From: Pedococcus bigeumensis
GTDB lineage: Bacteria; Actinomycetota; Actinomycetes; Actinomycetales; Dermatophilaceae
Assembly: GCF_006438965.1 (NCBI RefSeq)
Contig: NZ_RCZM01000002.1
Location: 186,001-250,000 of the forward strand
Direction: 5' to 3'
DNA length: 64,000 bases
This document shows, in pieces, positions 1,561 to 64,000 of this stretch. A program made the translations under genes and the position numbers. The first letter of the stretch is position 1; the number at the start of each line of letters is the position of its first letter. The notes beneath the pieces were generated by a model that saw only the letters and a list, made by a program, of their open reading frames with translations, did not search any database and was not told the DNA's origin.

Positions 1561-2328
1561 TCAGGCCGGTCGCCAGCCCGCGAGGACAGCGCAGGCCGCG
1601 TTGGTCGCGTCGGCCAGCGCGCGCTCGGATGCCCGCTGCAGCCGCAACAAGTGCCGGTGCCGCGAGGCTGCTTCGGCCGCGGTCAGCGCTCCGTCGCCGG
1701 CGCCCAGCGCGACGTCGACCACCGAGTCGATGGTGCCGGCCAGCGCGATGACGCGGGCCGCTCGGGCGGGCAGCCCGGGTGGCAGACCCCACCGGCCGCC
1801 GAGCGCTGCATCGGCCAGCTCGCGGGCCGCGCCGGCACCGAACGGCTGGCCGCCGATCTCGTCGATCGCCTCGGTGGCCGCGCGGATCTCCTCGCGCAGG
1901 TGCCGCTCGAGCTGGGAGGCCTCGAGCGCCTCGACCCGGTGGCGCGGCACCGGATCGGCGTCGTATGCCGTCCAGTCCACCCGGGTGCCGACGTCCAGCC
2001 CTCCGTCGGTGCCGGAGCCGTAGCTCGAAATGGTGGGGACGAGCAGCCCTCCGAGGGCGGGCACGAAGACACACTCGCCACCTTCGGCGGCGGCGCCCTG
2101 GGCATCGACCGAGGCGCCCGGCATACCGACGAGGTCACCGGGAGCCGGGAGGGCAACCAGCAGGGCCTGCTCGCCGAGGTCGTGCCACAGCGTGAGGCGG
2201 TCGAGGTCGCCGGCGACGTGGTCGATGTCGGGGAGCGCGCGGGCGATCGCGCTCTCCAGGGGCGACCCGGTTGCCCAGGCATGCGTCGCCCACAGCGAAA
2301 GCCGCACGGACGCAGGCAGTTCGGGCAT
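1561..2328 (-). CDS. Conserved hypothetical protein, 255 aa
   Basis: I do not recognise this protein. It is soluble (no signal peptide or clear membrane helix), rich in Ala, Leu and Asp, with a long helical-looking C-terminal half (about residues 130-250) containing many charged residues. The N-terminal half has a pattern of hydrophobic strands interrupted by Gly/Pro. It lies downstream of nothing obvious on the minus strand and is divergent from the ABC ATPase at 2394 across a 65-bp gap. The ATG at 2328 has a TAGCAT hexamer six nucleotides upstream and no Shine-Dalgarno, consistent with leaderless transcription. Codon use with strong GC3 supports a real gene; function is not assignable. Confidence 0.7.
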   Translation of the reverse strand: MPELPASVRLSLWATHAWATGSPLESAIARALPDIDHVAGDLDRLTLWHDLGEQALLVALPAPGDLVGMPGASVDAQGAAAEGGECVFVPALGGLLVPTISSYGSGTDGGLDVGTRVDWTAYDADPVPRHRVEALEASQLERHLREEIRAATEAIDEIGGQPFGAGAARELADAALGGRWGLPPGLPARAARVIALAGTIDSVVDVALGAGDGALTAAEAASRHRHLLRLQRASERALADATNAACAVLAGWRPA

Positions 2329-2393
2329 CCCGTCATGCTAAGCCGTCGCGTCGGGGCCCAAGGGCGAGGTCGCGGCAGATAGGGTCCAGTGCC

Positions 2394-3212
2394 ATGAGTG
2401 ACGTCCTTGAGTTCGCAGGAGTGAGCGTCGTCCGGGGGCAGGCGACCCTGCTCGACGACGTCTCCTGGGAGGTCGAGGAAGGCCAGCGCTGGGTGATCCT
2501 CGGACCCAACGGCGCGGGCAAGACCACGCTGCTCCAGCTGGCCGCCGGACGGATGCACCCGACCCGCGGCGTGGCCGGGGTGCTGGGTGAGGTGCTCGGT
2601 GCGGTCGACGTGTTCGAGCTGCGGCCGCGCATCGGGCTGGCCTCCGCGGCCCTGGCCGAGCGGATCCCCTCCGACGAGATCGTCCACAACGTCGTCGTCA
2701 CCGCCTCCTACGGCGTGGTCGGCCGCTGGCGGGAGAGCTACGAGACGTTCGACCACGCACGCGCGTCCGAGCTCCTCGTGGCGCTGGGCGCCGACCACCT
2801 GGCCGACCGCACCTACGGGACGTTGTCCGAGGGAGAGCGCAAGCGGGTCCAGATCGCCCGGGCCCTGATGACCGACCCCGAGCTGATGCTGCTCGACGAA
2901 CCCGCCGCCGGGCTCGACCTGGGTGGCCGCGAGGACCTCGTCCGCCGCCTGGGCGTCCTGGCCGGTGACGTCGAGGCGCCGGCGCTGATCCTCGTCACCC
3001 ACCACGTCGAGGAGATCCCACCCAACTTCACCGACGTGCTCCTGCTGCGCGAGGGTCGCATCGTCGCCCAGGGGCCGGTGGAGATCACGCTCACCGAGGC
3101 CAACCTGTCGGCGACGTTCGGCATGCCGCTCGAGCTGGAGCGTCGAGGGGACCGCTGGACCGCCCGGCTGCGGGTCGGCGGGGGAACGCCAGAGCCTGCT
3201 CCTTCGTCCTAG
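2394..3212 (+). CDS. ABC transporter ATP-binding protein
   Basis: A 272-residue stand-alone ABC ATPase. Walker A is GPNGAGKT (about residue 37), the signature is LSEGERKRV, and Walker B is LMLLDEPAAGLD followed by the H-loop VTHHVEE. The C-terminal extension after the nucleotide-binding fold is short. No permease or binding protein is adjacent, so the partner must be encoded elsewhere, or it acts like the ModF/YlmA-type soluble ATPases that this sequence recalls. The ATG at 2394 was chosen because TAGGGT lies eight nucleotides upstream and the reading frame starts the conserved fold immediately (MSDVLEFAGVSVVRG). Its upstream gap is shared with the divergent hypothetical gene. Confidence 0.88.
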   Translation: MSDVLEFAGVSVVRGQATLLDDVSWEVEEGQRWVILGPNGAGKTTLLQLAAGRMHPTRGVAGVLGEVLGAVDVFELRPRIGLASAALAERIPSDEIVHNVVVTASYGVVGRWRESYETFDHARASELLVALGADHLADRTYGTLSEGERKRVQIARALMTDPELMLLDEPAAGLDLGGREDLVRRLGVLAGDVEAPALILVTHHVEEIPPNFTDVLLLREGRIVAQGPVEITLTEANLSATFGMPLELERRGDRWTARLRVGGGTPEPAPSS

Positions 3213-3243
3213 AGTTGCCTGACCACTGAGAGGGAGGGGCGTC

Positions 3244-3711: not shown

Positions 3712-3713
3712 AC

Positions 3714-4901: not shown

Positions 4902-4918
4902 CCTGCACCGCACCACCC

Positions 4919-4954
4919 GGTATGCCGCCCGCTCGCCTGAGCGGGCGGCATACC
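4919..4954 (+). terminator. Perfect 16-bp hairpin built from two inverted GGTATGCCGC copies
   Basis: Arms at 4919-4934 and 4939-4954 are exact reverse complements, with a four-base loop (gcct). No T-run follows, as is usual in high-GC actinobacteria. It sits 17 bp after the SPFH stop codon and before the next promoter, so transcription termination is the simple reading. Each arm begins with one copy of the dispersed octamer GTATGCCG. Confidence 0.75.
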
Positions 4955-4993
4955 TGTGTCTGGGGTGGCGTCCGGCGTCGCTAGGGTGACGTG

Positions 4994-5779: not shown

Positions 5780-5786
5780 TGGCCCG

Positions 5787-6512
5787 ATGCTGATGGACTG
5801 GACCACCGTCCTGCTGCTCGGGTTTGCCCTCTTCGCCGGCGCCTTCGTGCAGTCGTCCATCGGCTTCGGGATGGCCGTCGTCGCGGCGCCGTTCCTCGTG
5901 CTCTTCGCACCCGAGCTCATGCCGGGCGCGCTGCTGGTCACGAGCTTCTCGCTTCCCGTCGTCCAGCTCGTGCACGGTCCTCGCGACATCGCCTGGCGGT
6001 CGCTGTCGTGGGCGTTGGTCGCCCGCCTGCTGGTGACGCCGCTGGGCGTTGTCGCGGTCGCCGTCCTGTCGGTGCGCGCCATCTCCGTCGTGACGGGGCT
6101 GCTGATCCTGCTCACGGTTGTGGCGTCGGTGTCCGCGCTCGAGGTGCGGGCCACGCCGGCGAACTCGGTCGTGGCCGGGGCGATCGCCGGCTTCTCGGGC
6201 ACCGCGGCCTCGATCGGCGGGCCCTTCTTCGCGCTGGTGCTGCAGCACGAGCGCCCCACCCGGCTGCGAGCCACGCTGTCCGCCTTCTTCCTCGTCGGCG
6301 CGGCGATGGCCGTGACCGGCCTGTCGGTGGTGGGCGAGTTCACCCACGAGCACCTGGTGGCCGGGATCGTGTGGATCCCCTTCATGGCCCTCGGGTATGC
6401 CGCCGCGGCACCGGCCCGTGCCCGGCTGGACCGTGACCGGTTGCGTCGGGCCGTGCTCGCCTTCTGCGTCGTGGCCAGCGTGAGCGTCATCGTGCGCGCG
6501 GTGTGGTTCTAG
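5787..6512 (+). CDS. Second TSUP-family membrane permease
   Basis: A 241-residue polytopic protein with about seven or eight hydrophobic segments. It carries a TSUP-like first repeat (FAGAFVQSSIGFGMAVVAAP) and second repeat (AIAGFSGTAASIGGPFFALV). It differs clearly from the upstream TSUP protein, so the pair is not a recent tandem duplication; the two may transport different substrates or form a heteromer. The ATG is eight bases downstream of the previous stop codon and therefore probably translated from the same message. The rare TAT codon in LGYAAAA at about 6396 falls inside a copy of the GTATGCCG octamer. Confidence 0.8.
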   Translation: MLMDWTTVLLLGFALFAGAFVQSSIGFGMAVVAAPFLVLFAPELMPGALLVTSFSLPVVQLVHGPRDIAWRSLSWALVARLLVTPLGVVAVAVLSVRAISVVTGLLILLTVVASVSALEVRATPANSVVAGAIAGFSGTAASIGGPFFALVLQHERPTRLRATLSAFFLVGAAMAVTGLSVVGEFTHEHLVAGIVWIPFMALGYAAAAPARARLDRDRLRRAVLAFCVVASVSVIVRAVWF

Positions 6513-7347: not shown

Positions 7348-8760
7348 CTACTTGACGGAGGCGTTGTAGGTCTTGATCTGGGCAGCCACCGCATCGGCTG
7401 CCTTGGTCATCGCCGCCTTGGGGTCGGCGCCGTTGAGCGCCGCCTCGAGACCGTCCTCCGAGGCCTTGCGGGCCTGGGGCATGACACCGAGCAGGCAGCC
7501 CTGGGTCGCGGTGTTGAGCTCGGTGCCCTCGAGCTGCTTTACCGCGACGTCGAACAACGGGTTTGCCTTGCGGTAGGCCACGTCCACGGGCTGGTTGAGC
7601 GCACCCTTGGAGTTGGGGAAGTAGCCGGTGCCGGTGTGCCACTTGGCCTGGGTGGCGGGCTCGGCGAGGTACTTCACGAACTGCCAGGACGCTTCCTTGT
7701 TGGCGTCCTTGTGCCCGACGCCGTTCACCCAGAGCGAGGCGCCGCCGATGATCGGGCCGCCCGTCTGGCCGGCAGCCACGTGCGGGTAGTTCACCGCGCC
7801 GACCTCCCAGCCGCCCTGCTTGGCCGCGTCGCTGTAGCCGCTCAGCTGGCCGGTGGACTCAAGGTTCATCGCGAGCTGGCCGGACTTGAAGGCGGCCTGG
7901 GCGGCCTTGGTGTCACGCCCGGTGTTGGCTGCGAGACCGTCCTTGACCATCTTCTGCCACCACTGCACGACCTCCAGGTTCACGCCCTCGGCGAAGTTGA
8001 CGCCCGCGGCGCGCCCCGTGCGGCCGTTTGCCTGGTCGCAGTACTCGGCTCCGCTGGTAGCCATGAACTGCTCGAGGAGCCAGCCGTAGATCGCGGCGCC
8101 GAAGCCGTAGTCCGCCGGGCCCCCGTTCTTCTTCGAGAGCTTCTCCGCGGCGGTGCGCACCTCGGCGAGCGTGGTCGGGGGCTTGTCCGGGTCGAGACCG
8201 GCCTTCTTGAACATCGTCTTGTTGATGTACAGCAACGGCATCGAGGTGTTGAACGGCATCGAGTTGAGCTTCTTGTCGATGCTGTAGTAGCCCGCGATGT
8301 TGGGCTGGAGGTCCGACACGTCGACCTTGTCGCGGTCGATGAACGACTGCATGGGGACGGTCTGCTTGGCGTCGATCATGAACTGGGTGCCGATGTCGTA
8401 GACCTGGATCACGTCGGGCGTCGACTTGCTCTGGATCGCGGCCTTGTACTTGGTGATCGCGTCGTCGTACTTGCCGGCGTAGGTCGACTTCACCTCGATC
8501 TTGCCCTTGTGCGCGGCGTTGAAGTCACTCACCAGCTGGTTGAGCACCTCGGCGTTCTTGCCGTCCATGGCGTGCCAGAACGACACGGTGGTGACCCCCT
8601 TGGCGCTCTTGAGCGCGTCCGCCGAGGGGGCTGCCGCGCCGTCGGAGGACGAGGCGCCCCCGCCGCCGCCACAGGCGGCGAGCACGAGGGAGCCCGCCAC
8701 GATGCCCGCGGGCACGGCATACCTCATCCTGCTCCGGCGGGTGGTGCTGGTAGATCTCAT
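7348..8760 (-). CDS. ABC carbohydrate-binding lipoprotein
   Basis: A 470-residue extracellular solute-binding protein of the family that serves CUT1 sugar importers (UgpB/MalE-like; VTTVSFWHAMDGKNAEVLNQ). The signal peptide ends in a lipobox, LVLAAC, followed by a Gly/Ser-rich linker, so the mature protein is lipid-anchored on the outer face of the membrane. Two ATG codons are possible. The one at 8760 has AGGAG eleven nucleotides upstream and is preferred. The one at 8784 overlaps the permease stop (TAATG) but has no ribosome site. The gene is last in a three-gene operon with two permeases. No ATPase gene is present, so a shared MsmK/MsiK-like ATPase is expected. Confidence 0.92.
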   Translation of the reverse strand: MRSTSTTRRSRMRYAVPAGIVAGSLVLAACGGGGGASSSDGAAAPSADALKSAKGVTTVSFWHAMDGKNAEVLNQLVSDFNAAHKGKIEVKSTYAGKYDDAITKYKAAIQSKSTPDVIQVYDIGTQFMIDAKQTVPMQSFIDRDKVDVSDLQPNIAGYYSIDKKLNSMPFNTSMPLLYINKTMFKKAGLDPDKPPTTLAEVRTAAEKLSKKNGGPADYGFGAAIYGWLLEQFMATSGAEYCDQANGRTGRAAGVNFAEGVNLEVVQWWQKMVKDGLAANTGRDTKAAQAAFKSGQLAMNLESTGQLSGYSDAAKQGGWEVGAVNYPHVAAGQTGGPIIGGASLWVNGVGHKDANKEASWQFVKYLAEPATQAKWHTGTGYFPNSKGALNQPVDVAYRKANPLFDVAVKQLEGTELNTATQGCLLGVMPQARKASEDGLEAALNGADPKAAMTKAADAVAAQIKTYNASVK

Positions 8761-10701: not shown

Positions 10702-11082
10702 TCAGTCGACCAGGCGCTGCAGGAGGTCGCGCAGCTCGGCTGCCGGGTCGGTCGTGAGGCCCCCGTGCACGGGCCCGGGCTGGACCACGGTGCTGCGCGG
10801 CGCGCTCAGCCAGCCGAACCTGCGCCCGAGCCCGCCCAGGGTGGGCAGGCCGTCGCCGGTGACCCCGCGGCATACCTGGCAGATGGTCTCGAGCGCCGCG
10901 TCGACGTCGTCGACGTCCACCTGGGGGGCGAACGAGCGCAGCCGCTCGGCATCGACTCGGTAGGCCGCCTCGAGGAAGTCGGCACCCTGGCTGTAGAGCA
11001 CCAGCCCGACGTTGAGGAACTCCTCCCGGTCCACGCGGGGGACGCACCGGAGCACGACGTACTGGTAGCCGTGGCGCGTCAT
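10702..11082 (-). CDS. DUF3037 family protein
   Basis: A 126-residue protein matching the actinobacterial DUF3037 family (YQYVVLRCVPRVDREEFLNVGLVLYS near the N-terminus, then LEAAYRVDAERLRSFAP). Its biochemical role is unknown. Its ATG overlaps the stop codon of the HipA-like kinase gene upstream (ATGA, 11079-11082), so the two proteins are translationally coupled. This pairing recurs in other bacteria as far as I recall, which suggests a physical or functional partnership. Downstream is a 125-bp gap that ends at the ABC operon promoter. Confidence 0.85.
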   Translation of the reverse strand: MTRHGYQYVVLRCVPRVDREEFLNVGLVLYSQGADFLEAAYRVDAERLRSFAPQVDVDDVDAALETICQVCRGVTGDGLPTLGGLGRRFGWLSAPRSTVVQPGPVHGGLTTDPAAELRDLLQRLVD

Positions 11083-11846
11083 GACGGGTTCCCGGGGAGC
11101 CAGGCCGACGGGTTCGCCACGCGCGCGAGGAGGTGCTCGACGTATGCCGTGCGGACGGCGTCGGGGGTCTCCAGACCCGGTGCCTGCTCGAGCCAGCCGT
11201 CGGGCACGGCCGCGACCACGGGGGCGAGCAGCTCGGCGGTGATCGCGGGGGAGAGGCGGTCGTGGGCTGCGGCCGGGCTGGAGGCGACGTCACGCAGGAC
11301 GTGGGTGCTGGCGTCGAAGGGCTGGGTCGCGAACCGGTGGGCGTCGGCGCCTCGCCCCGGCCAACCATGGTGGAAGTAGAGCGCTGCGCCGTGGTCGATG
11401 AGCCACGGGTTACGGTGCCAGACAAGAAGATTGGGGTTGCTCCACGTGCGGTCGACGTTGGCGGTGAACGCGTCGAGCCAGAGGATCTCGGCTGCCGTGG
11501 TCGACGTCGGCGGCCGTGACCCGTCGTAGCCGAACGAGCCGGGGAGGAAGTCGACCCCGAGGTTGAGGCCCAGGCTCGCGGTGAGCAGGTCCTGCACCTC
11601 CTCGTCGGCCTCGTACTTGGCGATGGGTGCCTGCAGGTCGACGACCGTCATCCGCGGCACGTCGAGGCCGAGCGCTCGGGCCAGCTCGCCCACGATGACC
11701 TCGGCGACGAGGACCTTGAGGCCCTGGCCGGCTCCGCGGAACTTCACGACGTAGGTGCCGAGGTCGTCCGCCTCGACGATGCCGGGCAGCGACCCCCCCT
11801 CCTTGAGGGGGGTGACGTAGCGCGTCGCGGTGACCTGGTCGAGCAC
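11079..11846 (-). CDS. HipA-like kinase family protein
   Basis: A 255-residue protein resembling the small HipA-like/phosphatidylinositol-kinase-like fold: an N-terminal nucleotide-binding region (GTYVVKFRGAGQGLKVLVAE), a central TAAEILWLDAFTANVDRTWSNPN segment containing the catalytic Asp and Asn, and a DHGAALYFHH metal-binding Asp. It is far shorter than toxin HipA (about 440 residues). No HipB-type HTH antitoxin lies beside it, so a toxin-antitoxin role is not supported. It starts with GTG, with TAGGCT seven nucleotides upstream (leaderless). It is coupled to the DUF3037 gene by a 4-bp overlap. Confidence 0.8.
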   Translation of the reverse strand: MLDQVTATRYVTPLKEGGSLPGIVEADDLGTYVVKFRGAGQGLKVLVAEVIVGELARALGLDVPRMTVVDLQAPIAKYEADEEVQDLLTASLGLNLGVDFLPGSFGYDGSRPPTSTTAAEILWLDAFTANVDRTWSNPNLLVWHRNPWLIDHGAALYFHHGWPGRGADAHRFATQPFDASTHVLRDVASSPAAAHDRLSPAITAELLAPVVAAVPDGWLEQAPGLETPDAVRTAYVEHLLARVANPSAWLPGNPS

Positions 11847-13172: not shown

Positions 13173-13643
13173 CTAGCGGGTATGCCGCGCGCCCGCGTCG
13201 GCGACGGTGTCGGCGGCGGCGGCGGCGCGGACAAGCAGGTCGTCGAGGGCGTCGACGGCGTCCTGCAGCCGTGCGACGGCGGCTGCATCGAGCTGGTCGA
13301 AGGCGGGGGAGAGGGCCTGGAGGCGGGCCCGCCGAACGCGGCCGAGTGCGGCCCGGCCCGCCGTCGTGAGCGAGATGAGGCTGGCGCGGGCGTCGGCAGG
13401 GTCGACGATGCGTTCGGCCCAGCCCTCGGCCTCCAAGCGCTGGAGCTGGGTGCTCATCGTCGGCTGGCTGCAGTGGTCGGCGGCGGCGAGCGAGCTGATG
13501 CGCGAAGGTCCGAGCTCTTCGATGAGGGCCAGCAGCCGCGCCTGGGCCATCGGCACGTCGAACGAGGCATTGCGCGATGCCCACCGGGTGAGGCGGGCGG
13601 CCGACCGCAGCACGCTGTTGCCGAGCTCGTCGCGGTTGGTCAT
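13173..13643 (-). CDS. MarR-family transcriptional regulator
   Basis: A 156-residue winged-helix regulator. The recognition helix region is ISSLAAADHCSQPTMSTQLQRLEAEGWAERI, followed by the wing (VDPADARASLISLTTAGRA), as in MarR/SlyA proteins. It precedes an MFS exporter in the same operon. The ATG at 13643 has TAATCT exactly six nucleotides upstream, and the perfect palindrome at 13652-13674 overlaps that -10 hexamer. The simplest reading is negative autoregulation of the regulator-exporter operon, relieved by a ligand. Confidence 0.92.
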   Translation of the reverse strand: MTNRDELGNSVLRSAARLTRWASRNASFDVPMAQARLLALIEELGPSRISSLAAADHCSQPTMSTQLQRLEAEGWAERIVDPADARASLISLTTAGRAALGRVRRARLQALSPAFDQLDAAAVARLQDAVDALDDLLVRAAAAADTVADAGARHTR

Positions 13644-14008: not shown

Positions 14009-15541
14009 TCAGCGCAGGGAGCGCACGGTCTCCACGGTGTCGGCTTCGTCCCCCGTCTTGTCGTCGCGGTAACGCAGCACCCGCGCGAACCGCAGCGCCA
14101 TCCCACCGGGGTAGCGGGACGAGGTCTGGATGCCGTCGAAGGCGATCTCCACGACCTGCTCGGGACGGACCGTCACGACGTAGCCCTCCGTGCCGTCCAC
14201 CGCCAGCTCGGTGAACCGCTCGGTCTGCCACGCCAGCATCTCGTCGGTCATCCCCTTGAACGTCTTGCCGAGCATCACGAACCCGCCAGTGTCCGGGTCG
14301 CGGGCGCCGAGGTGGATGTTGGAGAGCCACCCCTGACGGCGACCACTGCCCCACTCGATCGCCAGCACCACGAGGTCGAGGGTGTGCCTTGGCTTCACCT
14401 TCACCCATCCCGCGCCGCGACGGCCGGCGGCATACGGCGCCGAAGGTGCCTTGACCACGACCCCCTCGTGTCCGTCGCGGACGAGCTGGTCGAAGAAGCC
14501 GGTCGCCTCACCCGCGCTCGCGGCAGTGATCCGGGGAACCAGGCTCGCCTCCGGGACGAGGGCAGCCAACCGGTCGAAGCGCTCGGAGGCGGGCAGCCCG
14601 AGCAGGTCGTCGCCGTCGACGTGCAGCAGGTCGAAGAAGTACGGCGTGACCGGCACAGCGGCCCTCAGCTTCTCGACCCCGGTGCTGCTCATCGTGCGGG
14701 ACGCAGTCTGCTGGAAGGGCAGCGGCCGCCCGGCGTCGTCGAGGGCGATGGCCTCGCCGTCGATGACGAGCCTGGTGGCTGGCAGCGCCAGCACCGCCGC
14801 CACCACCTCGGGCAGCCGGTCGGTGATGTCGTCGAGCGACCGGGTGAACAGGCGCACGTCGTCACCGTCGCGGTGGGCCTGGAGCCGGATCCCGTCGAGC
14901 TTGCCGTCGACGACGACCCCTTGGCTGGCGTCGCCCACCTGTTCCCACGCGGCGTCGATGTCGGGGGCCGACGCAGCCAGCATCGGCCGCACTGGTCGAC
15001 CCACCTCGAGGCTGATCTCGGCGAGTGCCTCAGTGCCACCGCTGAGCGCCGCGGCGGCCACCGGACCGGCATAGCCGGCCAGCATCACGGCTCGCCGCAC
15101 CTCGGCCTCGGGGACCTCGGCCGCTGCCGCGATCGCCGCGAGCATCACGCCGTCGAGGGCGCCCTGCCGGACCTGACCGGTCACGAGGGCACGCAGGTAG
15201 TCCTGTTCCGGTGCGGTCAGCCGAGCGAAAAGGTCGGACACGGCCGCCGTCCGTGCCGCTGCCGAACCGCTTCCCGCGATCAGCGCGATCTCACCGAGCG
15301 CTGCGTGGACCTCGCCGACGGTGGCCGTGGCCTCGGTCGCGGGCGTCGGGAGGGTGGACAGCCCGCGCCAGCTCACCCCGATGCGACGCTGCGGTAGCAC
15401 CCCCGAGAGGTATGCCGCGACTGTCGCCGCATCGTCGGGTCCGGCCGCGCGCAGCGCGCCGGCCACTGCTGCCGTCTTGGCCAGCCGTGACCGTGTCGCG
15501 GTGGCGGCCGTCGAGGCGGCGACGACGTCAGCGAGGAGCAC
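14009..15541 (-). CDS. ligB: ATP-dependent DNA ligase
   Basis: A 510-residue ATP-dependent DNA ligase of the actinobacterial LigB type (about 507 residues in mycobacteria). An N-terminal helical DNA-binding domain (residues 1-190) precedes the nucleotidyltransferase domain. The adenylated lysine is K214 in [12 protein letters not shown], motif III is around [11 protein letters not shown], motif IV is [11 protein letters not shown] and motif V is GWVKVKP. An OB-fold follows to the C-terminus. It would seal nicks in repair, supplementing the essential NAD-dependent LigA. The GTG start has TAGCCT six nucleotides upstream (leaderless). Its promoter lies just beyond the terminator hairpin of ald. 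Confidence 0.93.
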
Positions 15542-15621: not shown

Positions 15622-16743
15622 TCAGGCCTTGCCGAGGATCGTCTGGAGGTCGACGGACTCGAAGCCGTGGGCCTCCGCGACGGGCGCGTAGGTCACCGCC
15701 CCGTCGTGGGTGTTGAGGCCCAGCGCGAGCGGCTGGTTGGCGCCGAGGGCGTCCCGCCACCCACGGTTGGCGAGCTGCACGGCATACGGGAGGGTGACGT
15801 TGGTGAGGGCGTAGGTGCTGGTGTGGGGCACCGCGCCGGGCATGTTGGCGACGCAGTAGAACACCGAGTTGTGGACCTGGTAGGTCGGGTCGGCGTGGGT
15901 GGTGGGCCGGGAGTCCTCGAAGCAGCCGCCCTGGTCGATCGAGATGTCGACGAGCACCGAGCCCGGCTTCATCCGGGAGACCTGCTCGTTCGTCACGAGC
16001 TTGGGCGCCTTGGCCCCTGGGACGAGCACCGCGCCGATGACGAGGTCGGCATCGATGACGGCGCGCTCCACCTCGTAGGCGTTGGACGCGACGGTCTGGC
16101 AGTGACCCTGGTAGATGGCGTCGGCATGACGCAGCTTGGCGATGTCACGGTCGAGCAGCAGCACCTCGGCCTGCATGCCGAGCGCGATGGCCGCGGCGTT
16201 CATGCCGGAGACACCGGCGCCGATGACGACCACCTTCGCGGCATACACACCGCTGACCCCGCCCATGAGAACACCACGGCCGCCCTGGGCGCGCATCAAG
16301 GTCTGCGCGCCGACCTGGGGGGCCAGCCGTCCCGCGACCTCGGACATGGGGGCGAGCAACGGCAGCGACCGGTCCGGGAGCTCCACCGTCTCGTAGGCGA
16401 TGCCGGTCACCTTGCGCTTGACGAGCTCCTCGGTGAGCGGCCGGTCGGCGGCGAGGTGGAGGTAGGTGAACAGGGTCTGGCCCGCACGCATCCGGTGGTA
16501 CTCCGGCTCGATCGGCTCCTTGACCTTGAGGATGAGGTCGCCGGTGCCCCAGACGTCGTCCGCGGTGTCGAGGATCGTCGCACCCGCGGCCGTGTAGTCC
16601 TCGTCGAGGATGGAGGAGCCCACACCGGCGTCCTTCTCCACGAAGACCTCGTGGCCGTGGACGACGAGCTCGTGCACGCCGGACGGGGTGATGGCGACGC
16701 GGTACTCGTTGTTCTTGACCTCGCGCGGGATGCCGACCTTCAT
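15622..16743 (-). CDS. ald: Alanine dehydrogenase
   Basis: A 373-residue enzyme, the normal length, that interconverts L-alanine and pyruvate plus ammonia with NAD. Diagnostic features are the N-terminal [20 protein letters not shown], the substrate-binding lysine in LILKVKEP, the catalytic His in TYLHLAADR and the NAD-binding motif [17 protein letters not shown]. The ATG has a full AGGAGG ribosome site five bases upstream. The gene stands alone. In actinobacteria ald is often induced by oxygen limitation or alanine, but no regulator is adjacent. The gap upstream (16744-16942) is divergent with the MEDS-ATPase gene and shows no clear operator. Confidence 0.96.
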
Positions 16744-18136: not shown

Positions 18137-18253
18137 GTCTACGAAGGTAGGAGCGATGGGGGTATGCCGCGGGCGTACGCGCCGGAGATCAGCCGAGTTC
18201 ACCGCCGACTAGGGCCGAACGGACGAGGTGGCCGGTCAGGAGGACGTCGCCGG

Positions 18254-33821: not shown

Positions 33822-33971
33822 AAGGTGCTCAGCAGGCCCCTTGGGGAGTGCCTGCTGCGACCCGGAACGATAGCACGCAGGCCACCCCTTCTCCCAAACG
33901 GCCCAGCCCACAACGAAACCCGCAGAACTGCCGGCCGCGCGGCATACCCCAGGGCGCTTAGTCTGGAACGC

Positions 33972-35312: not shown

Positions 35313-35323
35313 CGCGGTGCGGA

Positions 35324-35355
35324 GGTATGCCGCGTGGCTGGCGCCGCGGCATACC
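35324..35355 (+). terminator. 11-bp hairpin of inverted GGTATGCCGCG copies
   Basis: GGTATGCCGCG (35324-35334) and CGCGGCATACC (35345-35355) are exact complements with a 10-base loop, 12 bp after the M20 stop codon, followed by AAGTCTTT. It is one of three intergenic hairpins in the window that include the GTATGCCG octamer. Confidence 0.75.
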
Positions 35356-35441
35356 AAGTCTTTGCCTCGCGGCGCGTAGCCCCGGGGCTCGCCCCGTCGT
35401 TTGACCGGATGAGAGGTCCGATCGCGATGGAGGAGCACCAC

Positions 35442-47666: not shown

Positions 47667-47699
47667 GGACCACACGGTATGCCGCGCCGCCGACAGCGG

Positions 47700-47730
47700 T
47701 GCCGTGGCGCACCGACGGTGCGCCACGGCA
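47700..47730 (-). terminator. 14-bp hairpin after metH
   Basis: TGCCGTGGCGCACC (47700-47713) and its exact complement (47717-47730) enclose a GAC loop, 14 bp beyond the metH stop on the minus strand. The right arm runs into a CGGCATAC copy; another GTATGCCG copy lies at about 47678. Confidence 0.8.
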
Positions 47731-47743
47731 TACGACTGCCTGC

Positions 47744-51541
<3,798 letters not shown>

Positions 51542-51599: not shown

Positions 51600-53817
<2,218 letters not shown>

Positions 53818-55791: not shown

Positions 55792-56651
55792 TGGATCACC
55801 TGCTGCGGGACCCCTCACTGCTCGCCGTGCCGTTCTTCGTGCTCTTCATCGTCCTCGAGCTCGTCGCCCTCAAGGTCCTCGACGACGGTGAGCGGGACGG
55901 GCCCAACGCTCCGCTGATGGGCTACGCCGGGAAGGACTCCCGCGCCAGCCTGTCGATGGGCCTGGGGTCCGTCGTCATCAACGGAGGAGCCCGCGCCGCC
56001 GCCCTGCTCGGCTACACCGTGTTGTATGCCGTGACGCCGCTGCGGCTCGACCCGCACGGCTGGTGGACCTGGGTCGTCGCGCTGCTCCTCGTCGACCTGC
56101 TGTGGTACTCCTACCACCGCAGCAGCCACCGGATCCGGGTGCTGTGGGCGATGCACCAGGCGCACCACAGCAGCGTGCACTTCAACTACACGACCGCATT
56201 GCGGCAGAAGTGGAACCCGTGGGGTGAGCTGCTGTTCTGGGTCCCGCTGCCGCTCCTGGGGATCCCGCCGTGGATGATCTTCTTCGTCTTCTCGCTCAAC
56301 CTCGTCTACCAGTTCTGGGTGCACACCGAGACGATCCCCAAGCTGTGGCGGCCGATCGAGCTGGTCTTCAACACCCCGTCGCACCACCGCGTCCACCACG
56401 CCAGCGACGCCGAGTACCTCGACCGCAACTACGGCGGGATCCTCATCGTCTGGGACCGGCTGTTCGGCACCTTCCGCGAGGAGCAGCAGCGCCCGAGGTA
56501 CGGCCTGACCCACCCGGTCACCACGTTCAACCCGTTCCGGCTGCAGTACGCCGAGTTCGCCCAGATGGTCCGCGAGGTCAGAGCGGCGCGTCGGTGGCGG
56601 GACCGGCTGGGGTACGTGTTCGCACCACCCGGCTGGTCACCTGAGTCCTGA
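55791..56651 (+). CDS. Sterol desaturase/fatty acid hydroxylase family protein
   Basis: A 286-residue membrane di-iron oxygenase. The histidine clusters are YHRSSHR (HxxxH), HQAHHSS (HxxHH) and, after the central helices, NTPSHHRVHHASD (HxxHH). These are the eight or more His that hold two irons in alkane-, sterol- and lipid-hydroxylating enzymes. There are four or five helices around them. The GTG start follows TAACTT by six nucleotides. The 3' end overlaps the convergent gene at 56578 by 74 bp. With that neighbour it may modify a lipid or acyl chain; the substrate is unknown. Confidence 0.88.
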   Translation: MDHLLRDPSLLAVPFFVLFIVLELVALKVLDDGERDGPNAPLMGYAGKDSRASLSMGLGSVVINGGARAAALLGYTVLYAVTPLRLDPHGWWTWVVALLLVDLLWYSYHRSSHRIRVLWAMHQAHHSSVHFNYTTALRQKWNPWGELLFWVPLPLLGIPPWMIFFVFSLNLVYQFWVHTETIPKLWRPIELVFNTPSHHRVHHASDAEYLDRNYGGILIVWDRLFGTFREEQQRPRYGLTHPVTTFNPFRLQYAEFAQMVREVRAARRWRDRLGYVFAPPGWSPES

Positions 56652-59247
56652 GGTCCCGGCGGGCCACCAGAGCCCTGAACACCCGTCGCACGGTCGCTTC
56701 GAGCCCGGTCCACAACCGGCAGTAGGCGATTCCGACGACGAGGCAGCAGGCCATCGCCAGCAGCGAGCTGTAGCCCATGATCCGCGGGTAGACCACGAAG
56801 TGGGTCAGGTAGACGAACAGCGACGCCGTGGCGATCTGCGAGGCTGCCCGGCCGACCCAGCCGGGGACCCTGGCGGTCGGGAACCAGATGAGCGCGAGCA
56901 GCCCCACGACGATGGTCACCTCACGGCCGGGCATGCTGGGCCAGAACCCCGGCACGGTGAGCACCGGGATTGCCGACACGAGCAGCCGCTGCCGCGTCGT
57001 GGTCGCCCGCGCCGCCGCCCAGCCGGTCGCGAACAGCCAGATCAGCACGTAGGCGTTGGCGCCCCGGTACGGCCCCGCGTCGGGGACGAGCACGCCATAC
57101 CTCGTCAGCAGGCCCACGCCCACGAGGGCGAGGGGGAAGGCGAACGGCCACCGCCGCTCCCAGCGGTCCACGGCCGGAATCGCCATCAGCAGCGCGGTCC
57201 CGAGCAGCAGTGACGTGATCGCCTCGATGAACCAGTAGTGCCAGTGGGGCGACCACTGGGCCCAGTCGCCGAGCACCTGGTTGACCATCAGCACGTTGCG
57301 CCAGTCGTAGGTGCCGGCCACGAGGGCCACTGCCCCGATCCACGCCGCGCTGGGCAGCACGACGCGAGCCACGCTGCGCCCGATCCCGCGGACCCGCTCC
57401 CGCCGGGGGCGTGAGGTGAGCTGGAACCGCGCCACGTTGTAGCCGACAAGGGCCAACAGGGTGTGGGCTCCTCCCGGCACGAAAGACAGGTGGGTGTGGT
57501 TGGCCAGGATGAGCAGGATGGCCATTGCGCGGACCAGCACCGTCGTGTCGACGGTGTGCAGCCGCCGTCGGGTGCGCACGGCACCGGGAGCCGAAGCAGC
57601 CGCACCCAGCTCGCTGGGCGCGAGGAGGTGCCAGCCGTGGGGCAGCGCGTCGAGCAGGCCTTCCAGGCGCAGCGACACCTCGACATAGGACAGCGAGTCG
57701 CCGCCGAGGTCAACGAAGCTCGTTGTCTGGTCGGCCTGTGGTGCCGACAGCAGGGACCGGTAGAGCGTCACCACGTCCTCGGTCAGGTCCCCTGTCTGGC
57801 GCTGCAAAGCGCCCGCAGCGGCAGACTGTGCGGCCTGTGCGGCCTGTGCGCGGTGCGCACCGATCAGCTCCGCCATGCCGGGGTAGTCGGGCTTGCCGGT
57901 CGCCAGCCGCGGCGCCTCCGAGCCGTCGAGCACCACCACCCCCGACGCAGGTATGCCGTGCCGCCGGGTCACGGTCTGCGTCACGTCGGCGCCGCTGCCG
58001 GGTGCCGCGACCAGGACGCCGATGGCGTCACCGAGGTCGACGCAGTGCGTCTCGTGGCCGGTGGCCGCCAGGTCTCGTTCGACCTGGTCGAGGTCGATGC
58101 GCAGCCCCACGACCTTGGCGAACCGGCTGCGGCGCCCGACGATCTCGACGAGGCCGTCGGGGCCGAGGCGGGCGAGGTCACCTGTCCGCAGCTCGTGCAC
58201 CTCGCGGCCTCGCGCGAGGTCGAGTCCGGACTCGGCATAGCCGAGCATGACGTTGGGACCGGAGTAGACGAGCTCGCCCAGGCCACAGTCGATCTCGCTC
58301 AACAGGTCCAGCCGGAACGAGCCGCCGGGTACCGGCCGACCGACCGACTCCGGGCGGGCCGAGAGGAGGTCAGGAGGTAGGACGGCCATCCGGGCGGTCG
58401 CCTCGGTCTGCCCGTACATGACGAACAGGTCCCAGCCGTGCCCGCGGCCGAGCGCCGCATAGCGCTGCACCGTGTCTGGAGCCAGCCGGCCGCCGGCCTG
58501 GGTGACTACGCGCAGGGACGGGTGCGTCCGCTGGGTGAAGCCACTGCGGTCGAGCAGGTCGAAGCTGTGGGGGACGCCGGCCAGGGTGGTCGCCCCGACC
58601 TCGTCGAACAGGGTCCAGAAGCAGGGGTCGACGACCGAGAGGTCGGTCAGCACCACTGCCGCACCGGCGCTGAGGTGGCTGTGCACCACGGACAGGCCGT
58701 AGCAGTAGTGCAGCGGCAGGCTCGTGATGGCCCGGTCGGTCCGACGCACGCCGAGCGACTCGGCGATGGCAGCGGCGTTGCTGTCGAGGTTGTCGTGCGA
58801 GAGGCGGACCACCTTGGGCGACCCTGTCGACCCGCTGGTGGTGAGCAGCAGGGCCAGGTCGACGTGCAGGTCGTGGGCGGCGACGGTTCGGCGCGCGGTC
58901 ACCTGCCAGCCCGAGTCCCCGCGGCCGGCGACGACATCCGGGTCGTAGGCGTCGATCAGGCCGTCGAGGTGCTGCAGCCGGTCCCCGGGAGCCAGCAGCG
59001 GGACGTGGCCGGCGTGCAGCGCGCCGAGGTAGGTGACCAGGGCGTCCAGCGAGTTCTCGGCGGCGATGAGGACCAGGCGTCGTCCGGTGCCCAGGGCGAT
59101 GCCGGCGGCAACCACCCGGTCGGCGAGCGCGGCATACGTGAGGCACGTGTCGCCGGTGTGGACGGCGATGTCCTGGCCCCGGTCGGCGAGGGTGGCGACG
59201 AAGCCGACGCGGCGGCGGGTGGGGGAGGACAGCGGTCGAACGGGCAC
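56578..59247 (-). CDS. Adenylation-carrier-membrane acyltransferase fusion, iron-box controlled
   Basis: An 889-residue three-part protein. Residues 1-475: AMP-forming adenylation domain, with A3 motif LLTTSGSTGSPKVVRLSH (about 140), A5 MYGQTEATARM, A7/A8 RTGDLARLG and the A10 lysine in ATGKPDYPGM. Residues 480-545: acyl/peptidyl carrier with phosphopantetheine Ser518 in VDLGGDSLSYVE. Residues 570-860: membrane acyltransferase-3-like domain of about ten helices (VLVRAMAILLILANHTHL). The order matches what DltA, DltC and DltB do as separate proteins: activate, carry, transfer. The activated acid and the acceptor are unknown. The leaderless promoter (TACGAT, six nucleotides before GTG) abuts a DtxR/IdeR-type iron box at 59260-59278. 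Confidence 0.87.
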   Translation of the reverse strand: MPVRPLSSPTRRRVGFVATLADRGQDIAVHTGDTCLTYAALADRVVAAGIALGTGRRLVLIAAENSLDALVTYLGALHAGHVPLLAPGDRLQHLDGLIDAYDPDVVAGRGDSGWQVTARRTVAAHDLHVDLALLLTTSGSTGSPKVVRLSHDNLDSNAAAIAESLGVRRTDRAITSLPLHYCYGLSVVHSHLSAGAAVVLTDLSVVDPCFWTLFDEVGATTLAGVPHSFDLLDRSGFTQRTHPSLRVVTQAGGRLAPDTVQRYAALGRGHGWDLFVMYGQTEATARMAVLPPDLLSARPESVGRPVPGGSFRLDLLSEIDCGLGELVYSGPNVMLGYAESGLDLARGREVHELRTGDLARLGPDGLVEIVGRRSRFAKVVGLRIDLDQVERDLAATGHETHCVDLGDAIGVLVAAPGSGADVTQTVTRRHGIPASGVVVLDGSEAPRLATGKPDYPGMAELIGAHRAQAAQAAQSAAAGALQRQTGDLTEDVVTLYRSLLSAPQADQTTSFVDLGGDSLSYVEVSLRLEGLLDALPHGWHLLAPSELGAAASAPGAVRTRRRLHTVDTTVLVRAMAILLILANHTHLSFVPGGAHTLLALVGYNVARFQLTSRPRRERVRGIGRSVARVVLPSAAWIGAVALVAGTYDWRNVLMVNQVLGDWAQWSPHWHYWFIEAITSLLLGTALLMAIPAVDRWERRWPFAFPLALVGVGLLTRYGVLVPDAGPYRGANAYVLIWLFATGWAAARATTTRQRLLVSAIPVLTVPGFWPSMPGREVTIVVGLLALIWFPTARVPGWVGRAASQIATASLFVYLTHFVVYPRIMGYSSLLAMACCLVVGIAYCRLWTGLEATVRRVFRALVARRDLRTQVTSRVVRTRTPAGPATDAPL

Positions 59248-59720: not shown

Positions 59721-59727
59721 CCAGGCC

Positions 59728-60717: not shown

Positions 60718-60763
60718 TGGCACTCCTGGTGGATGGGTGTCCGGCAGACGGTCTGCAACGAGC

Positions 60764-61801
60764 CTAACCCGCCGGACCGCCCTGTGGCGCGCCGGCGGCA
60801 TACAGGTGGGACCGAAGCTCGGACACGAGCTCGGCGCGGTGCTGGGCCGCGACCGGAACGGCGCCCGGTATCGACGCAAAGCCGTGGGGGACCCGGACGT
60901 AGTTGGTGGCCCTGACCTCGACACCGGCAGCCCGAAGCGCCGCGGCGTAGCGAAGGCCGTCGTCGCGCAGTGGATCCAGGTCGGCGGTCTGGACCAATGC
61001 CGGCGGCAGGCCCTCCAGGTTGCCGAACAGCGGCGAGACGACGGGGTCTCGCCAGTCCGAGCCGGTCGGGGCGTAGTGCTCGCGGAAGACCACGATGCTC
61101 TTACGGGTCAGCATCGGGGCGTCGGCATGCAGGTCGATGGACGCCGAGGCCAGGGTCATGTCCGTGGCGGGGTACAGCAGCGCCTGGTGACGGATGGGGG
61201 AGTCGCCCCGGTCGCGCAGCTGCTGCGCCGTGACCGCGGCGAGGGTGCCTCCGGCGCTGTCGCCGCAGACGGCGATCCGGCTGGTGTCCGCCCGGAGGAC
61301 GCTGCCCCGCCCCGCGACCCACGCCGTGGCGTCGACGCAGTCCTGAGCCGCGGTGGGGGCTCGGTGCTCGGGAGCCAGCCGGTAGTCGACCGACACGACC
61401 ACGGCGCGTACCTGCGCGGCCACGTGGGAGCAGAGCGGGTCGAACATGACGACGTTGCCCTGGACGAAGCCGCCGCCGTGGAGGAAGACGATGACGGGCA
61501 CGTCGGTGTCGGTGTCGCGCACCGACCGGGGCCGGTAGATCCGCAACGGGATCTCGTAGCCGTCCCTGGCCCGAGCCGTGCCGTAGGTGATCCCCACCGA
61601 CCGGTCCACGGGGCCGGCGACCCACGAGAACGGCGGTCGGTCCGGGTAGGTCATCCCGCGGCCGGCCTGGATCTGCTCGACCGTGCGGCTCTCGACGGCC
61701 GGGCGCAGCCAGTTGTCGAGCACGGCGGTCACCAGGGCTGTCTGGGGGTACATCGCGAAGGGGGAGTGCCGCATGGTGCGCCACTCTTCCACCATGGGCA
61801 C
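60764..61801 (-). CDS. HSL-type alpha/beta hydrolase (esterase/lipase)
   Basis: A 345-residue hydrolase of the hormone-sensitive-lipase family. The oxyanion motif is VFLHGGGFVQG, the nucleophile is VCGDSAGGTLAA (Ser), the acid is Asp in TADLDPLRDDG and the base His is in VPHGFASIPG. The N-terminal cap is about 90 residues. It would cleave short-chain esters. It starts at GTG 61801 (or ATG two codons later), divergent from dop with 34 bp between. It ends 46 bp before the prs start and is the last of the five genes between the ATPase and dop. Confidence 0.92.
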   Translation of the reverse strand: MPMVEEWRTMRHSPFAMYPQTALVTAVLDNWLRPAVESRTVEQIQAGRGMTYPDRPPFSWVAGPVDRSVGITYGTARARDGYEIPLRIYRPRSVRDTDTDVPVIVFLHGGGFVQGNVVMFDPLCSHVAAQVRAVVVSVDYRLAPEHRAPTAAQDCVDATAWVAGRGSVLRADTSRIAVCGDSAGGTLAAVTAQQLRDRGDSPIRHQALLYPATDMTLASASIDLHADAPMLTRKSIVVFREHYAPTGSDWRDPVVSPLFGNLEGLPPALVQTADLDPLRDDGLRYAAALRAAGVEVRATNYVRVPHGFASIPGAVPVAAQHRAELVSELRSHLYAAGAPQGGPAG

Positions 61802-61818
61802 CGCCTAGGGTGAGTCCC

Positions 61819-61839: not shown

Positions 61840-63353
61840 CGGTCCGCAGGGTGATGGGGATCGAGACGGAGTACGGCATCTCGGTGCCCGGGGACCCGGC
61901 CGCCAACCCGATGATCCTGTCCGGACAGGTGGTCAACGCCTACGCGTCCGCGCAGGGGATCAGGGCCGCCCACGCGTCGTGGGACTACGCCGACGAGGCG
62001 CCGCTGCGGGACGCCCGTGGCTTTGAGATGGGCCGCGGCGCTGCCGATGCGAGCCAGCTCACCGACGAGGAGGACCCCACCCTCGCCAACGTGGTGCTGA
62101 CCAACGGCGCCCGGCTCTATGTCGACCACGCGCACCCGGAGTACTCCTCACCCGAGGTGACCTCACCCCGTGCAGCCGTGGCCTTCGACCGGGCCGGCGA
62201 GGCGATCATGGCCGAGTCGGTGCGGAGGCTCTCGCAGGTCCCGCCCGGCGTGAACCTCTACAAGAACAACACCGACGGCAAGGGCCAGTCCTACGGCACC
62301 CACGAGAACTACCTGATGCGCCGCGAGACACCGTTCACCGACATCGTGCGCCACCTCGTGCCGTTCTTCGTCGCGCGCCAGGTCGTCACCGGGTCCGGCC
62401 GGGTGGGGATCGGCATGGACTCGCGGACCGCCGGGTACCAGCTCAGCCAGCGCAGCGACTTCTTCGAGGTCGAGGTCGGGTTGGAGACGACCCTGAAGCG
62501 GCCGATCATCAACACCCGTGACGAGCCGCACGCCGTGGCCGACCTCTACCGGCGGCTGCACGTCATCATCGGCGACGCCAACCACTGCGACGTCGCCAAC
62601 CTGCTCAAGCTGGGCACCACCTCGCTCGTGCTGGCCATGATCGAGGACCGCGCGATCGACGTCGACCTCACCGTGGCCCGGCCCGTGGCGACCCTCCAGG
62701 CGGTCAGCCACGACCCGACCTGCACCTCGCTCATCGAGCTGCGCGACGGCACCAAGCTCACGGCGGTGCAGCTGCTCTGGCGCTACCACGCCCTCGCGGA
62801 GCGCTACCTCAAGAGCAGGTATGCCGGCGAGCTCGACAGCGACACCGACGAGGTGATGCGGTGGTGGGCGATCGTCCTCGACCGGCTCGAGCGTGACCCA
62901 CGCGAGGCGTCGCGGGAGCTCGACTGGGTGGCCAAGCAACAGGTGCTGCAGGGCTACATCGACCGCGACGGCCTCGACTGGACCGACTCCCGGTTGCGGG
63001 CCATCGACATCCAGTGGTCCGACGTGCGTCCCGACAAGGGGATCTTCCACAAGCTGCGGGCGGCCGGACGGTTCGAGGAGCTGGTGACGGAGAGCGCCGT
63101 CATGGAGGCCGTGCACGAACCGCCGCACGACACGAGGGCCTACTTCCGGGGCAAGTGCCTGGAGAAGTACCCCGACCAGATCGCGGCCGCGTCCTGGGAC
63201 TCGGTCATCTTCGACATCCCCGGCCAGACGTCCCTGCAGCGAGTCCCGATGCTCGAGCCGCTCCGGGGCACCAAGGCCGCCGTCGGGGCCTTGTTCGACC
63301 GCAGTCCGGACGCCGCCACCCTGTTGCGTGAGTTGGCCTCCGCATCGGGATAG
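61836..63353 (+). CDS. dop: Pup deamidase/depupylase
   Basis: A 505-residue enzyme of the glutamine-synthetase-like pupylation family. It converts the C-terminal Gln of Pup to Glu and removes Pup from proteins. The start [20 protein letters not shown] has the conserved nucleotide-binding Glu. The insertion loop characteristic of Dop but not PafA appears around residues 35-70. [20 protein letters not shown] and [18 protein letters not shown] [11 protein letters not shown] also fit. Here Pup ends in GGQ, so deamidation is required. The gene is followed by pup after 35 bp. Confidence 0.97.
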
Positions 63354-63388
63354 GTTGATCACAAGCACCGCGAGCGAGAGGTCACACC

Positions 63389-63595
63389 ATGCCCAGCCAA
63401 GAGCAGAGCCGGCCACAGCGGCGCGACGACGCCCCCGACGAGGCGCCCGAGCCCACCCCCGCAGCGCCGGAAGCCACGGCCCGCAAGGAGAACCTCGACT
63501 CGGACATCGACAGCGTCCTCGACGAGATCGACGGCGTCCTCGAGTCCAACGCGGAGGAGTTCGTCCGCGGCTTCGTCCAGAAGGGCGGCCAGTGA
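63389..63595 (+). CDS. pup: Prokaryotic ubiquitin-like protein Pup
   Basis: A 68-residue, largely disordered protein tag. The N-terminus is Gln/Arg/Asp-rich, the C-terminal half has the helix that binds the ATPase coiled coil ([20 protein letters not shown]) and the end is [11 protein letters not shown]. The final Gln must be deamidated by Dop before PafA can attach Pup to lysines. GAGAGG lies eight nucleotides before the ATG, and TAGGTT (just after the dop stop) may start a separate transcript. Its stop codon overlaps the prcB start (GTGA). Confidence 0.98.
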
Positions 63596-64000
63596 CCACT
63601 GGCGCCGACGCGGGGAAGCTCCCCGCGGCATACCTCTCGGCAGGGTCGTCGTCGTTCACCGAGTTCGTCGGCGTCCACGCCCCCCAGCTGCTGCCCTCGC
63701 GACGGGTGCTGCCCCCGGGCAACATGCTCGAGGCGCCGCACGGCACCACCATCGTCACGGCGACCTTCGCCGGGGGCGTGGTGATGGCAGGCGACCGCCG
63801 GGCGACGATGGGCAACCTCATCGCCAACCGCGACATGGAGAAGGTCTTCGCCGGTGACGAGTACTCCGCCGTCGGCATCGCCGGCACGGCGGGGATCGCC
63901 ATCGAGCTGGTCAAGCTCTTCCAGGTCGAGCTCGAGCACTACGAGAAGATCGAGGGCACGCTGCTCTCGTTGGAGGGCAAGGCAAACCGGCTCGCCTCGA
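63592..64000 (+). CDS. prcB: Proteasome subunit beta (partial, 3' end cut)
   Basis: The first 136 codons are visible. A 51-residue propeptide ([20 protein letters not shown] at residues 10-29) precedes the catalytic threonine T52, exposed by cleavage in [12 protein letters not shown]. The Asp and Lys of the active site are in [14 protein letters not shown] and [13 protein letters not shown]. The GTG overlaps the pup stop. prcA and probably pafA should lie beyond the window. Confidence 0.97.

Follow-up and report, generated by a model that had tools for sequence, protein, structure and literature searches.

A dispersed octamer of Pedococcus bigeumensis and its family as a probable DNA uptake sequence

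To our knowledge, systems in which a short word marks DNA for uptake have so far been reported from two Gram-negative families alone. The DNA uptake sequences (DUS) of the Neisseriaceae have CTG as their core and the uptake signal sequences (USS) of the Pasteurellaceae have GCGG, and the receptor of the latter has been sought among minor pilins (PMC12616744, excerpted text). Transformation of Micrococcus luteus requires both of its tad clusters and comEC (Angelov et al. 2015, PMC4322843, excerpted text). The subject here is the octamer GTATGCCG, which is dispersed through a stretch of 64,000 nucleotides from Pedococcus bigeumensis (positions 186,001 to 250,000 of contig NZ_RCZM01000002.1; the window). 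The octamer is very probably a DNA uptake sequence of this organism, a function that we infer from its balance between the strands, regular spacing, hairpins at gene ends, confinement to one family among those sampled and near-exclusive replacement by alternative words in relatives. On the machinery side the genome carries ComEA, ComEC and a Tad locus here called T2, and the words are absent from six genera that lack T2. The uptake-sequence-like nature suggested in the initial annotation is the best supported of the readings, and the octamer probably belongs to an independent uptake-sequence system, the first outside the Gram-negatives, that makes use of a Tad pilus.

Exact matches to GTATGCCG in the window number 41, with 21 on the plus and 20 on the minus strand, just as had been counted by eye in the initial annotation. 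The sites listed there were real, although their coordinates were off by one base (the first copy lies at 1963-1970), and the over-representation was likewise real, although the figure of 18-fold was too low. Dinucleotide-preserving shuffles of the window gave a mean of 0.96 copies and a maximum of 4 (100 shuffles), an enrichment of ~43-fold, and in the whole genome (4.22 Mb in 13 contigs, with no closed chromosome) there are 2551 copies compared with 74 of the reversed word (35 forward, 39 reverse), an enrichment of ~34-fold. Density is 0.64 per kb in the window and 0.60 per kb in the genome, or about one copy per 1.6 kb. The absence of strand bias also holds genome-wide, with 1264 forward and 1287 reverse copies (binomial p 0.66), and in each of four sampled blocks. 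A 464-kb sample, made up of the window and 400 kb of further stretches of the same genome, contains 294 copies, whereas Markov models trained on the same DNA, word included, expect 7.1 (order 2) and 13.3 (order 3); orders 4 to 6 expect 72, 192 and 281 because such models learn GTATGCCG itself. Divided by a simple gene finder written for the analysis, 237 of these copies are coding (0.556 per kb), 55 are intergenic (1.457 per kb) and 2 lie across a gene edge. Synonymous codon shuffling within genes, which does not keep codon-pair preference, gave 22.0 coding copies compared with the 237 observed (sd 5.0, maximum 37, 100 shuffles); for the reversed word 7 were observed and 7.1 expected. The over-representation is thus confirmed as real and beyond composition and codon bias, and neither a third-order Markov expectation nor codon and dipeptide preference accounts for it.

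The word is narrowly defined, with 17 of its 24 one-mismatch neighbours at or under expectation in the 464 kb and CTATGCCG (20 vs 5), GGATGCCG (84 vs 47) and GTAGGCCG (51 vs 26) clearly over it. Flanking sequence is weakly biased, with a preceding G in 60% of copies and few A on either side. Copies in the same 464 kb are more evenly spaced than a Poisson process would place them (coefficient of variation 0.738 vs 0.993, with 0 of 5000 simulations as even), and the largest gap is 5193 bp compared with ~9444 bp under Poisson. Sixteen neighbouring pairs are less than 120 bp apart, and 14 have the plus-minus orientation that can form a hairpin, where 5.4 would be expected for any one orientation. 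Ten of the 14 are intergenic, every one 3' of a gene, and four are within genes. Three such pairs in the window had been described as hairpins just after genes, and their 3' location is borne out in each case, with a stable fold found at 4920/4946 and 47677/47726 and not at 35325/35347. The inverted pair reported inside cydD does lie within a cydD-like ABC transporter gene (24489/24510). Three of the four hairpins fold far better than shuffled sequence (z -6.3, -4.5 and -4.7), whereas that at 35325-35354 folds no better (z -0.8, 43 of 200 shuffles as good), and in the predicted fold of 47660-47745 the copies at 47677 and 47726 do not form a duplex with each other along their full length. Sites also tend to be conserved, since 25 of 44 aligned sites were identical in related genomes compared with 22% of background 8-mers, in alignments of 78% mean identity whose pairs are not independent of one another. 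The exact copies and the inverted pairs of the window, the latter with the minimum free energy (MFE) of the fold, are as follows.

1963..1970, plus: GTATGCCG copy, exact match
2119..2126, minus: GTATGCCG copy, exact match
4920..4927, plus: GTATGCCG copy, exact match, left stem of hairpin 4920-4953
4946..4953, minus: GTATGCCG copy, exact match, right stem of hairpin 4920-4953
4920..4953: inverted pair, 18 bp past the end of a Band_7 (SPFH) gene; fold of 4912-4970, MFE -45.9 kcal/mol, z -6.3
6395..6402, plus: GTATGCCG copy, exact match
8715..8722, minus: GTATGCCG copy, exact match
10868..10875, minus: GTATGCCG copy, exact match
11142..11149, plus: GTATGCCG copy, exact match
13180..13187, plus: GTATGCCG copy, exact match
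14428..14435, minus: GTATGCCG copy, exact match
15410..15417, plus: GTATGCCG copy, exact match
15780..15787, minus: GTATGCCG copy, exact match
16239..16246, minus: GTATGCCG copy, exact match
18162..18169, plus: GTATGCCG copy, exact match
18782..18789, plus: GTATGCCG copy, exact match
22426..22433, minus: GTATGCCG copy, exact match
24489..24496, plus: GTATGCCG copy, exact match, left stem of intragenic hairpin 24489-24517
24510..24517, minus: GTATGCCG copy, exact match, right stem of intragenic hairpin 24489-24517
24489..24517: inverted pair within the cydD-like ABC transporter gene (24341-25936); fold of 24480-24525, MFE -28.7 kcal/mol, z -4.7
26187..26194, plus: GTATGCCG copy, exact match
30319..30326, minus: GTATGCCG copy, exact match
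30592..30599, minus: GTATGCCG copy, exact match
31136..31143, plus: GTATGCCG copy, exact match
32527..32534, plus: GTATGCCG copy, exact match
33940..33947, minus: GTATGCCG copy, exact match
35325..35332, plus: GTATGCCG copy, exact match, left stem of hairpin 35325-35354
35347..35354, minus: GTATGCCG copy, exact match, right stem of hairpin 35325-35354
35325..35354: inverted pair, 12 bp past the end of an M20 peptidase gene; fold of 35317-35372, MFE -25.6 kcal/mol, z -0.8
37962..37969, plus: GTATGCCG copy, exact match
40975..40982, minus: GTATGCCG copy, exact match
41260..41267, plus: GTATGCCG copy, exact match
42902..42909, minus: GTATGCCG copy, exact match
47677..47684, plus: GTATGCCG copy, exact match, one side of hairpin region 47677-47733
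47726..47733, minus: GTATGCCG copy, exact match, other side of hairpin region 47677-47733
47677..47733: inverted pair, 10 bp past the 3' end of metH (47744-51541, minus); fold of the minus strand of 47660-47745, MFE -53.2 kcal/mol, z -4.5
50746..50753, minus: GTATGCCG copy within metH, exact match
51308..51315, plus: GTATGCCG copy within metH, exact match
51856..51863, plus: GTATGCCG copy, exact match
56024..56031, plus: GTATGCCG copy, exact match
57951..57958, plus: GTATGCCG copy, exact match
59130..59137, minus: GTATGCCG copy, exact match
60796..60803, minus: GTATGCCG copy, exact match
62819..62826, plus: GTATGCCG copy, exact match
63626..63633, minus: GTATGCCG copy, exact match

The phylogenetic range of the word was surveyed in 186 genomes from 53 genera of the GTDB family Dermatophilaceae, which appears to cover several NCBI families (Intrasporangiaceae, Ornithinimicrobiaceae, Dermatophilaceae and Kytococcaceae), with 390 copies as the cut for abundance and no genome omitted; in what follows G numbers denote genomes, g numbers genera and L numbers loci of the comparison set. 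At least 390 copies of GTATGCCG, on near-equal strands, were found in 107 genomes and 30 genera, the 11 genomes of the organism's own genus having from 625 to 3986. Weak enrichment just under the cut was seen in G034 (361), G181 (341), G028 (322), G026 (295), G004 (293) and G019 (293). In 362 genomes sampled across 19 other families of the same order the count never exceeded 180, and abundance of GTATGCCG is confined to one family among those sampled. The word is present in Terracoccus sp. 273MFTsu3.1, Serinicoccus kebangsaanensis and one metagenome-assembled genome; such abundance is lacking in Marihabitans asiaticum, Phycicoccus jejuensis, Mobilicoccus massiliensis and Kytococcus aerolatus, and likewise in Nocardioides potassii of another family. 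Going by identical copy counts, the first seven of these, in the order given, probably correspond to G170, G118, G050, G091, G156, G096 and G082. The initial annotation had proposed looking for the motif in related genera, and it is indeed shared among them, with other words in some relatives.

These other words, of like kind, were revealed by k-mer scans of relatives without GTATGCCG. One of them, CGAAGGGG, is abundant (1198 to 3180 copies) in every one of the 16 g27 genomes and in all three of g36, the genus that includes Marihabitans, and has at most 396 copies in the other 167 family genomes; the 19 genomes rich in it have at most 41 copies of GTATGCCG each. Nine of the 41 in Marihabitans asiaticum (G548), whose own dialect is CGAAGGGG, lie within 10.7 kb (C1:329128-339807), probably a segment acquired from a relative that uses GTATGCCG. 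A second word, GGATGCCG, has 2099 to 4480 copies in seven genomes of g9, g15 and g51, compared with 241 to 1336 in the other 179. Within g15, G034 and G035 have 4480 and 3619 copies of GGATGCCG with 361 and 288 of GTATGCCG, and G036 and G037 are rich in both (2195 and 2099 of GGATGCCG, 1217 and 1189 of GTATGCCG), so that this genus has apparently been caught between two dialects. At least one of the three words is present at such levels in 131 of the 186 genomes. In a tree of T2 TadA, TadB and TadC from 26 genomes GGATGCCG appears in two separate places and CGAAGGGG in a single clade (support 1.0), and word-less genomes are scattered, some as sisters of motif-rich ones (G008/G009, G114/G115, G084/G086). 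Such replacement of words among relatives resembles the uptake-sequence dialects of Neisseria.

Further dialects were sought by codon-shuffle k-mer scans of 19 relatives, using 60-120 kb of each (40 kb of G001). Peaks were found for GTACGCCG in g35 (100 vs 21.4), CGATGCGG in g32 (94 vs 26.3) and CGTACGCC in g6 (71 vs 19.0), weaker ones (z up to ~12) in G084, G021, G015 and G008, and nothing over z 8 in four T2-less genomes. None of these was called a dialect, because some one-mismatch neighbours of GTATGCCG, CGAAGGGG and GGATGCCG were raised too and GTACGCCG was also raised in Nocardioides. GTACGCCG is one base from GTATGCCG and ~5-7 fold enriched both in G089 of g35 (L205-L208, L042) and in Nocardioides (L058-L060); it could be a further dialect or a codon-pair effect. 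In G041 of g18 (L050) all eight copies of TATGCCGC in 20 kb share an extended context, CGTATGCCGCTGRGCYSGC, that exceeds the octamer of P. bigeumensis. A repeat in G184 of g53 (L041:3400-3600 and 18400-19700), with the common form GTCGAGTAGGTGCGGAGCGTTAGC and partly a 59-base spacing, is clustered or in tandem rather than dispersed and was set aside as an octamer-type word.

A check for com and pil genes, also proposed in the initial annotation, found comEA and comEC adjacent in the P. bigeumensis genome (L151) together with three Tad loci, T1 (L155), T2 (L156) and T3 (L157). T2 (L156:10177-14793) comprises, from Pfam, tadA, tadB and tadC, two TadE-like proteins and one TadG-like, along with a 69-aa Flp-like protein that has no Pfam match. 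AlphaFold models of the two TadE-like proteins have a mean pLDDT (predicted local distance difference test) of 92.2 and 93.3, and Foldseek gave neither a PDB match with E <0.001. The N-termini of the M. luteus pilins are printed in PMC6370729 (excerpted text), and when these were compared the tad-1 TadE and TadF best matched T2 E1 and E2 (shuffle z 9.5 and 10.0) and the tad-2 Flp best matched the T3 Flp (z 7.0), with no clear best match for TadE2; three of four pilins match as expected. On the strength of these matches T2 is equated with tad-1 as its putative counterpart and T3, less firmly, with tad-2. T1, the larger locus (~C1:382-391 kb), was rejected as the uptake machine in favour of T2, its TadA missing at high identity from many motif-rich genomes, and comEC and comEA, which are near-universal in the family, are uninformative as discriminating genes.

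A match to T2 tadA at E 1e-90, some partial, was found in 164 of the 186 family genomes and in 123 of the 131 that bear a word. Closer inspection of 32 genomes, mostly picked for an absent or partial match, revealed just 36-42% identical tadA paralogues in the single representatives inspected from g2, g12, g16, g28, g29 and g38; the seven other genomes of these genera also have no match at E 1e-90. The remaining 26 have a T2-like tadA, whole or fragmented, save G101, G122 and G181 (68-75% complete), in which the search turned up paralogues alone. None of the three words occurs in any of the six T2-less genera, whereas 34 of the 47 other genera have one (Fisher p 0.0012, uncorrected for phylogeny).

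A number of observations weigh against GTATGCCG as an uptake word read by T2. Near-matches are common around the Haemophilus USS, whereas most of those of GTATGCCG (17/24) are not enriched. Thirteen genera have T2 without any of GTATGCCG, CGAAGGGG and GGATGCCG; some of them, g3, g10 and g13 for example, are weakly enriched in GTATGCCG, and the thirteen may rely on different words, may have uptake that needs no word or may no longer take up DNA at all. The motif-less G008 and G114 retain a complete-looking T2 operon, while T2 tadA is broken or fragmentary in the word-rich G139, G146, G100, G177, G073, G074, G118, G121, G124 and G093, and the T2 operon of G178 is interrupted; word-rich genomes with a broken T2 need either recent breakage or another route. 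ComEC (180/186) and ComEA (179/186) are found in the family regardless of motif, T1 does not track it, and residues specific to a dialect in the T2 pilins are few and unconvincing.

The breaks themselves show that the competence-type Tad ATPase gene tadA is a recurrent insertion site of foreign DNA. In seven of the 32 chosen genomes (G139, G146, G100, G099, G177, G159 and G161) T2 tadA is split in two on a single contig, with 3.9 to 79 kb between the halves and the break between residues ~165 and 235, and in G100, G099, G177 and G159 the break falls at ~200-210, on the Walker A segment GGTQAGKT (201-208). Inserts were examined in full in G100, G177 and G159, where one end of each encodes a large serine recombinase (PF00239 and PF07508), and over the first 9.5 kb in G139. 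The motif-rich G100, G177 and G139 have one copy of GTATGCCG each in the insert, 3 compared with 20.5 expected from genome density (P 2e-6), with the G139 insert counted in part; the flanks have 5 copies in 5.0 kb (G100), 0 in 4.6 kb (G177) and 0 in 0.5 kb (G139). The insert of G159 is uninformative on this point, as its genome is not enriched in GTATGCCG. The start of the ~70 kb insert of G139 (L268, C1:2353001-2363000) encodes homologues of DpdD, DpdK and DpdJ (PADLOC), which we take to belong to a defence system that modifies DNA with 7-deazaguanine. Elsewhere, G184 has a large serine recombinase after tadC and no pilin genes downstream within the region examined, and G178 and G084 have DNA of lower G+C without pilin genes after tadC. 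Insertion into competence genes is predicted from intragenomic conflict over transformation (PMC4774983 and PMC11472951, excerpted text).

If GTATGCCG is an uptake sequence, the octamer on outside DNA would be bound by one of the pilins of the Tad competence pilus or by an accessory protein of it, and the retracting pilus would hand the tagged DNA to ComEA and ComEC, from which single strands would enter and then recombine. Tagged fragments would be taken up preferentially and tagged alleles copied back into the population, and because of this preferential entry copies would accumulate wherever they are tolerated, as in Tyr-Ala codons, gene ends and hairpins. Drift in the specificity of the receptor would lead to re-tagging of the genome and hence to dialects, and loss of the pilus to decay of the tags. 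Such a mechanism would explain the symmetry, spacing, hairpins, dialects, word-poor mobile DNA and site conservation. There is a good chance that this is the third sequence-specific uptake system to have evolved independently and the first outside the Gram-negatives, with a word read by a Tad/Flp pilus, at least three word switches if GTATGCCG is ancestral (GGATGCCG twice in separate lineages and CGAAGGGG once), one genus with two words and word-poor mobile elements that have repeatedly entered tadA.

Other explanations are much less probable. The octamer might be the target of a family-wide methyltransferase, kept by protection or by a partner protein, and a sharp, non-degenerate word that differs between lineages, as methyltransferase specificities do, would suit such a mark. 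However, the target sites of restriction systems are usually avoided, in contrast to the ~35-fold enrichment here, HIP1 of the cyanobacteria, which is linked to methylation, is palindromic and GTATGCCG is not, and a methylation mark predicts neither hairpins at gene ends nor a link to a pilus locus, so that this explanation is improbable. Slightly less probable again is a recombination hot spot like Chi or a chromosome-handling signal, such as FtsK-orienting polar sequences (KOPS), architecture-imparting sequences (AIMS) or the site of a nucleoid protein. A copy about every 1.6 kb, evenly spaced, and words that are specific to lineages would fit, but Chi and KOPS have a polar action and a skewed distribution over the strands, and the skew expected of the recombination hot spot raised in the initial annotation is absent, genome-wide and in the sampled blocks. 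Inverted hairpins at gene ends are unexpected for such signals, and Chi depends on RecBCD whereas many actinobacteria use AdnAB. A dispersed mobile or repetitive extragenic palindromic (REP)-like repeat, or a terminator module that has spread, would account for the hairpin pairs at gene ends, but 237 of the 294 copies are coding, most of them single, and flanks carry little information, with no conserved unit >12 bp around most copies, which makes this very improbable. A codon-pair or amino-acid effect (Tyr-Ala as TAT-GCC) is barely credible, for although 119 of the 277 TAT codons of the 464-kb sample fall inside the motif and 119 of the 237 coding copies are in the commonest phase, G-TAT-GCC-G, synonymous shuffling removes most copies, the enrichment extends to the antisense strand and to intergenic DNA and the word is absent from relatives in the same family.

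Searches of the open-licence literature, by title and start of abstract, found no actinobacterial uptake word, and none for natural transformation in the Intrasporangiaceae, under that NCBI family name alone, found any report; the matches listed for the letters of the octamer were unrelated by title. If GTATGCCG is an uptake sequence, a third, unrelated case in a Gram-positive with a different pilus would indicate that self-tagging evolves repeatedly, and the dialects and losses would be a rich set in which to find the receptor. It would also lead one to expect natural transformability, present or past, in dozens of little-studied actinobacteria and would provide the tag with which to transform them.

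Among known systems, HIP1 of the cyanobacteria resembles GTATGCCG as a sharply defined octamer that is very abundant in coding and non-coding sequence alike, but GTATGCCG is not its own reverse complement. The Flp/Tad transformation of M. luteus is alike in its two Tad loci, similar pilin N-termini, comEA and comEC, and phylum; PMC4322843 does not contain the term 'uptake sequence'. As in the USS of the Pasteurellaceae there is an abundant short exact word, with more than one type per family (PMC12616744, excerpted text), whereas GTATGCCG and CGGCATAC lack GCGG and both the phylum and the uptake machine are different. The DUS of the Neisseriaceae (Frye et al. 2013, PMC3630211, excerpted text) likewise occur as many short copies, with terminator-associated inverted pairs and dialects. 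Unlike them, GTATGCCG and CGGCATAC lack CTG and CAG, the words GTATGCCG, GGATGCCG and CGAAGGGG are unrelated to the DUS and have 8 bases, with most one-mismatch neighbours unenriched, and the host is Gram-positive, with a Tad pilus as the presumed reader in place of a type IV pilus with ComP.

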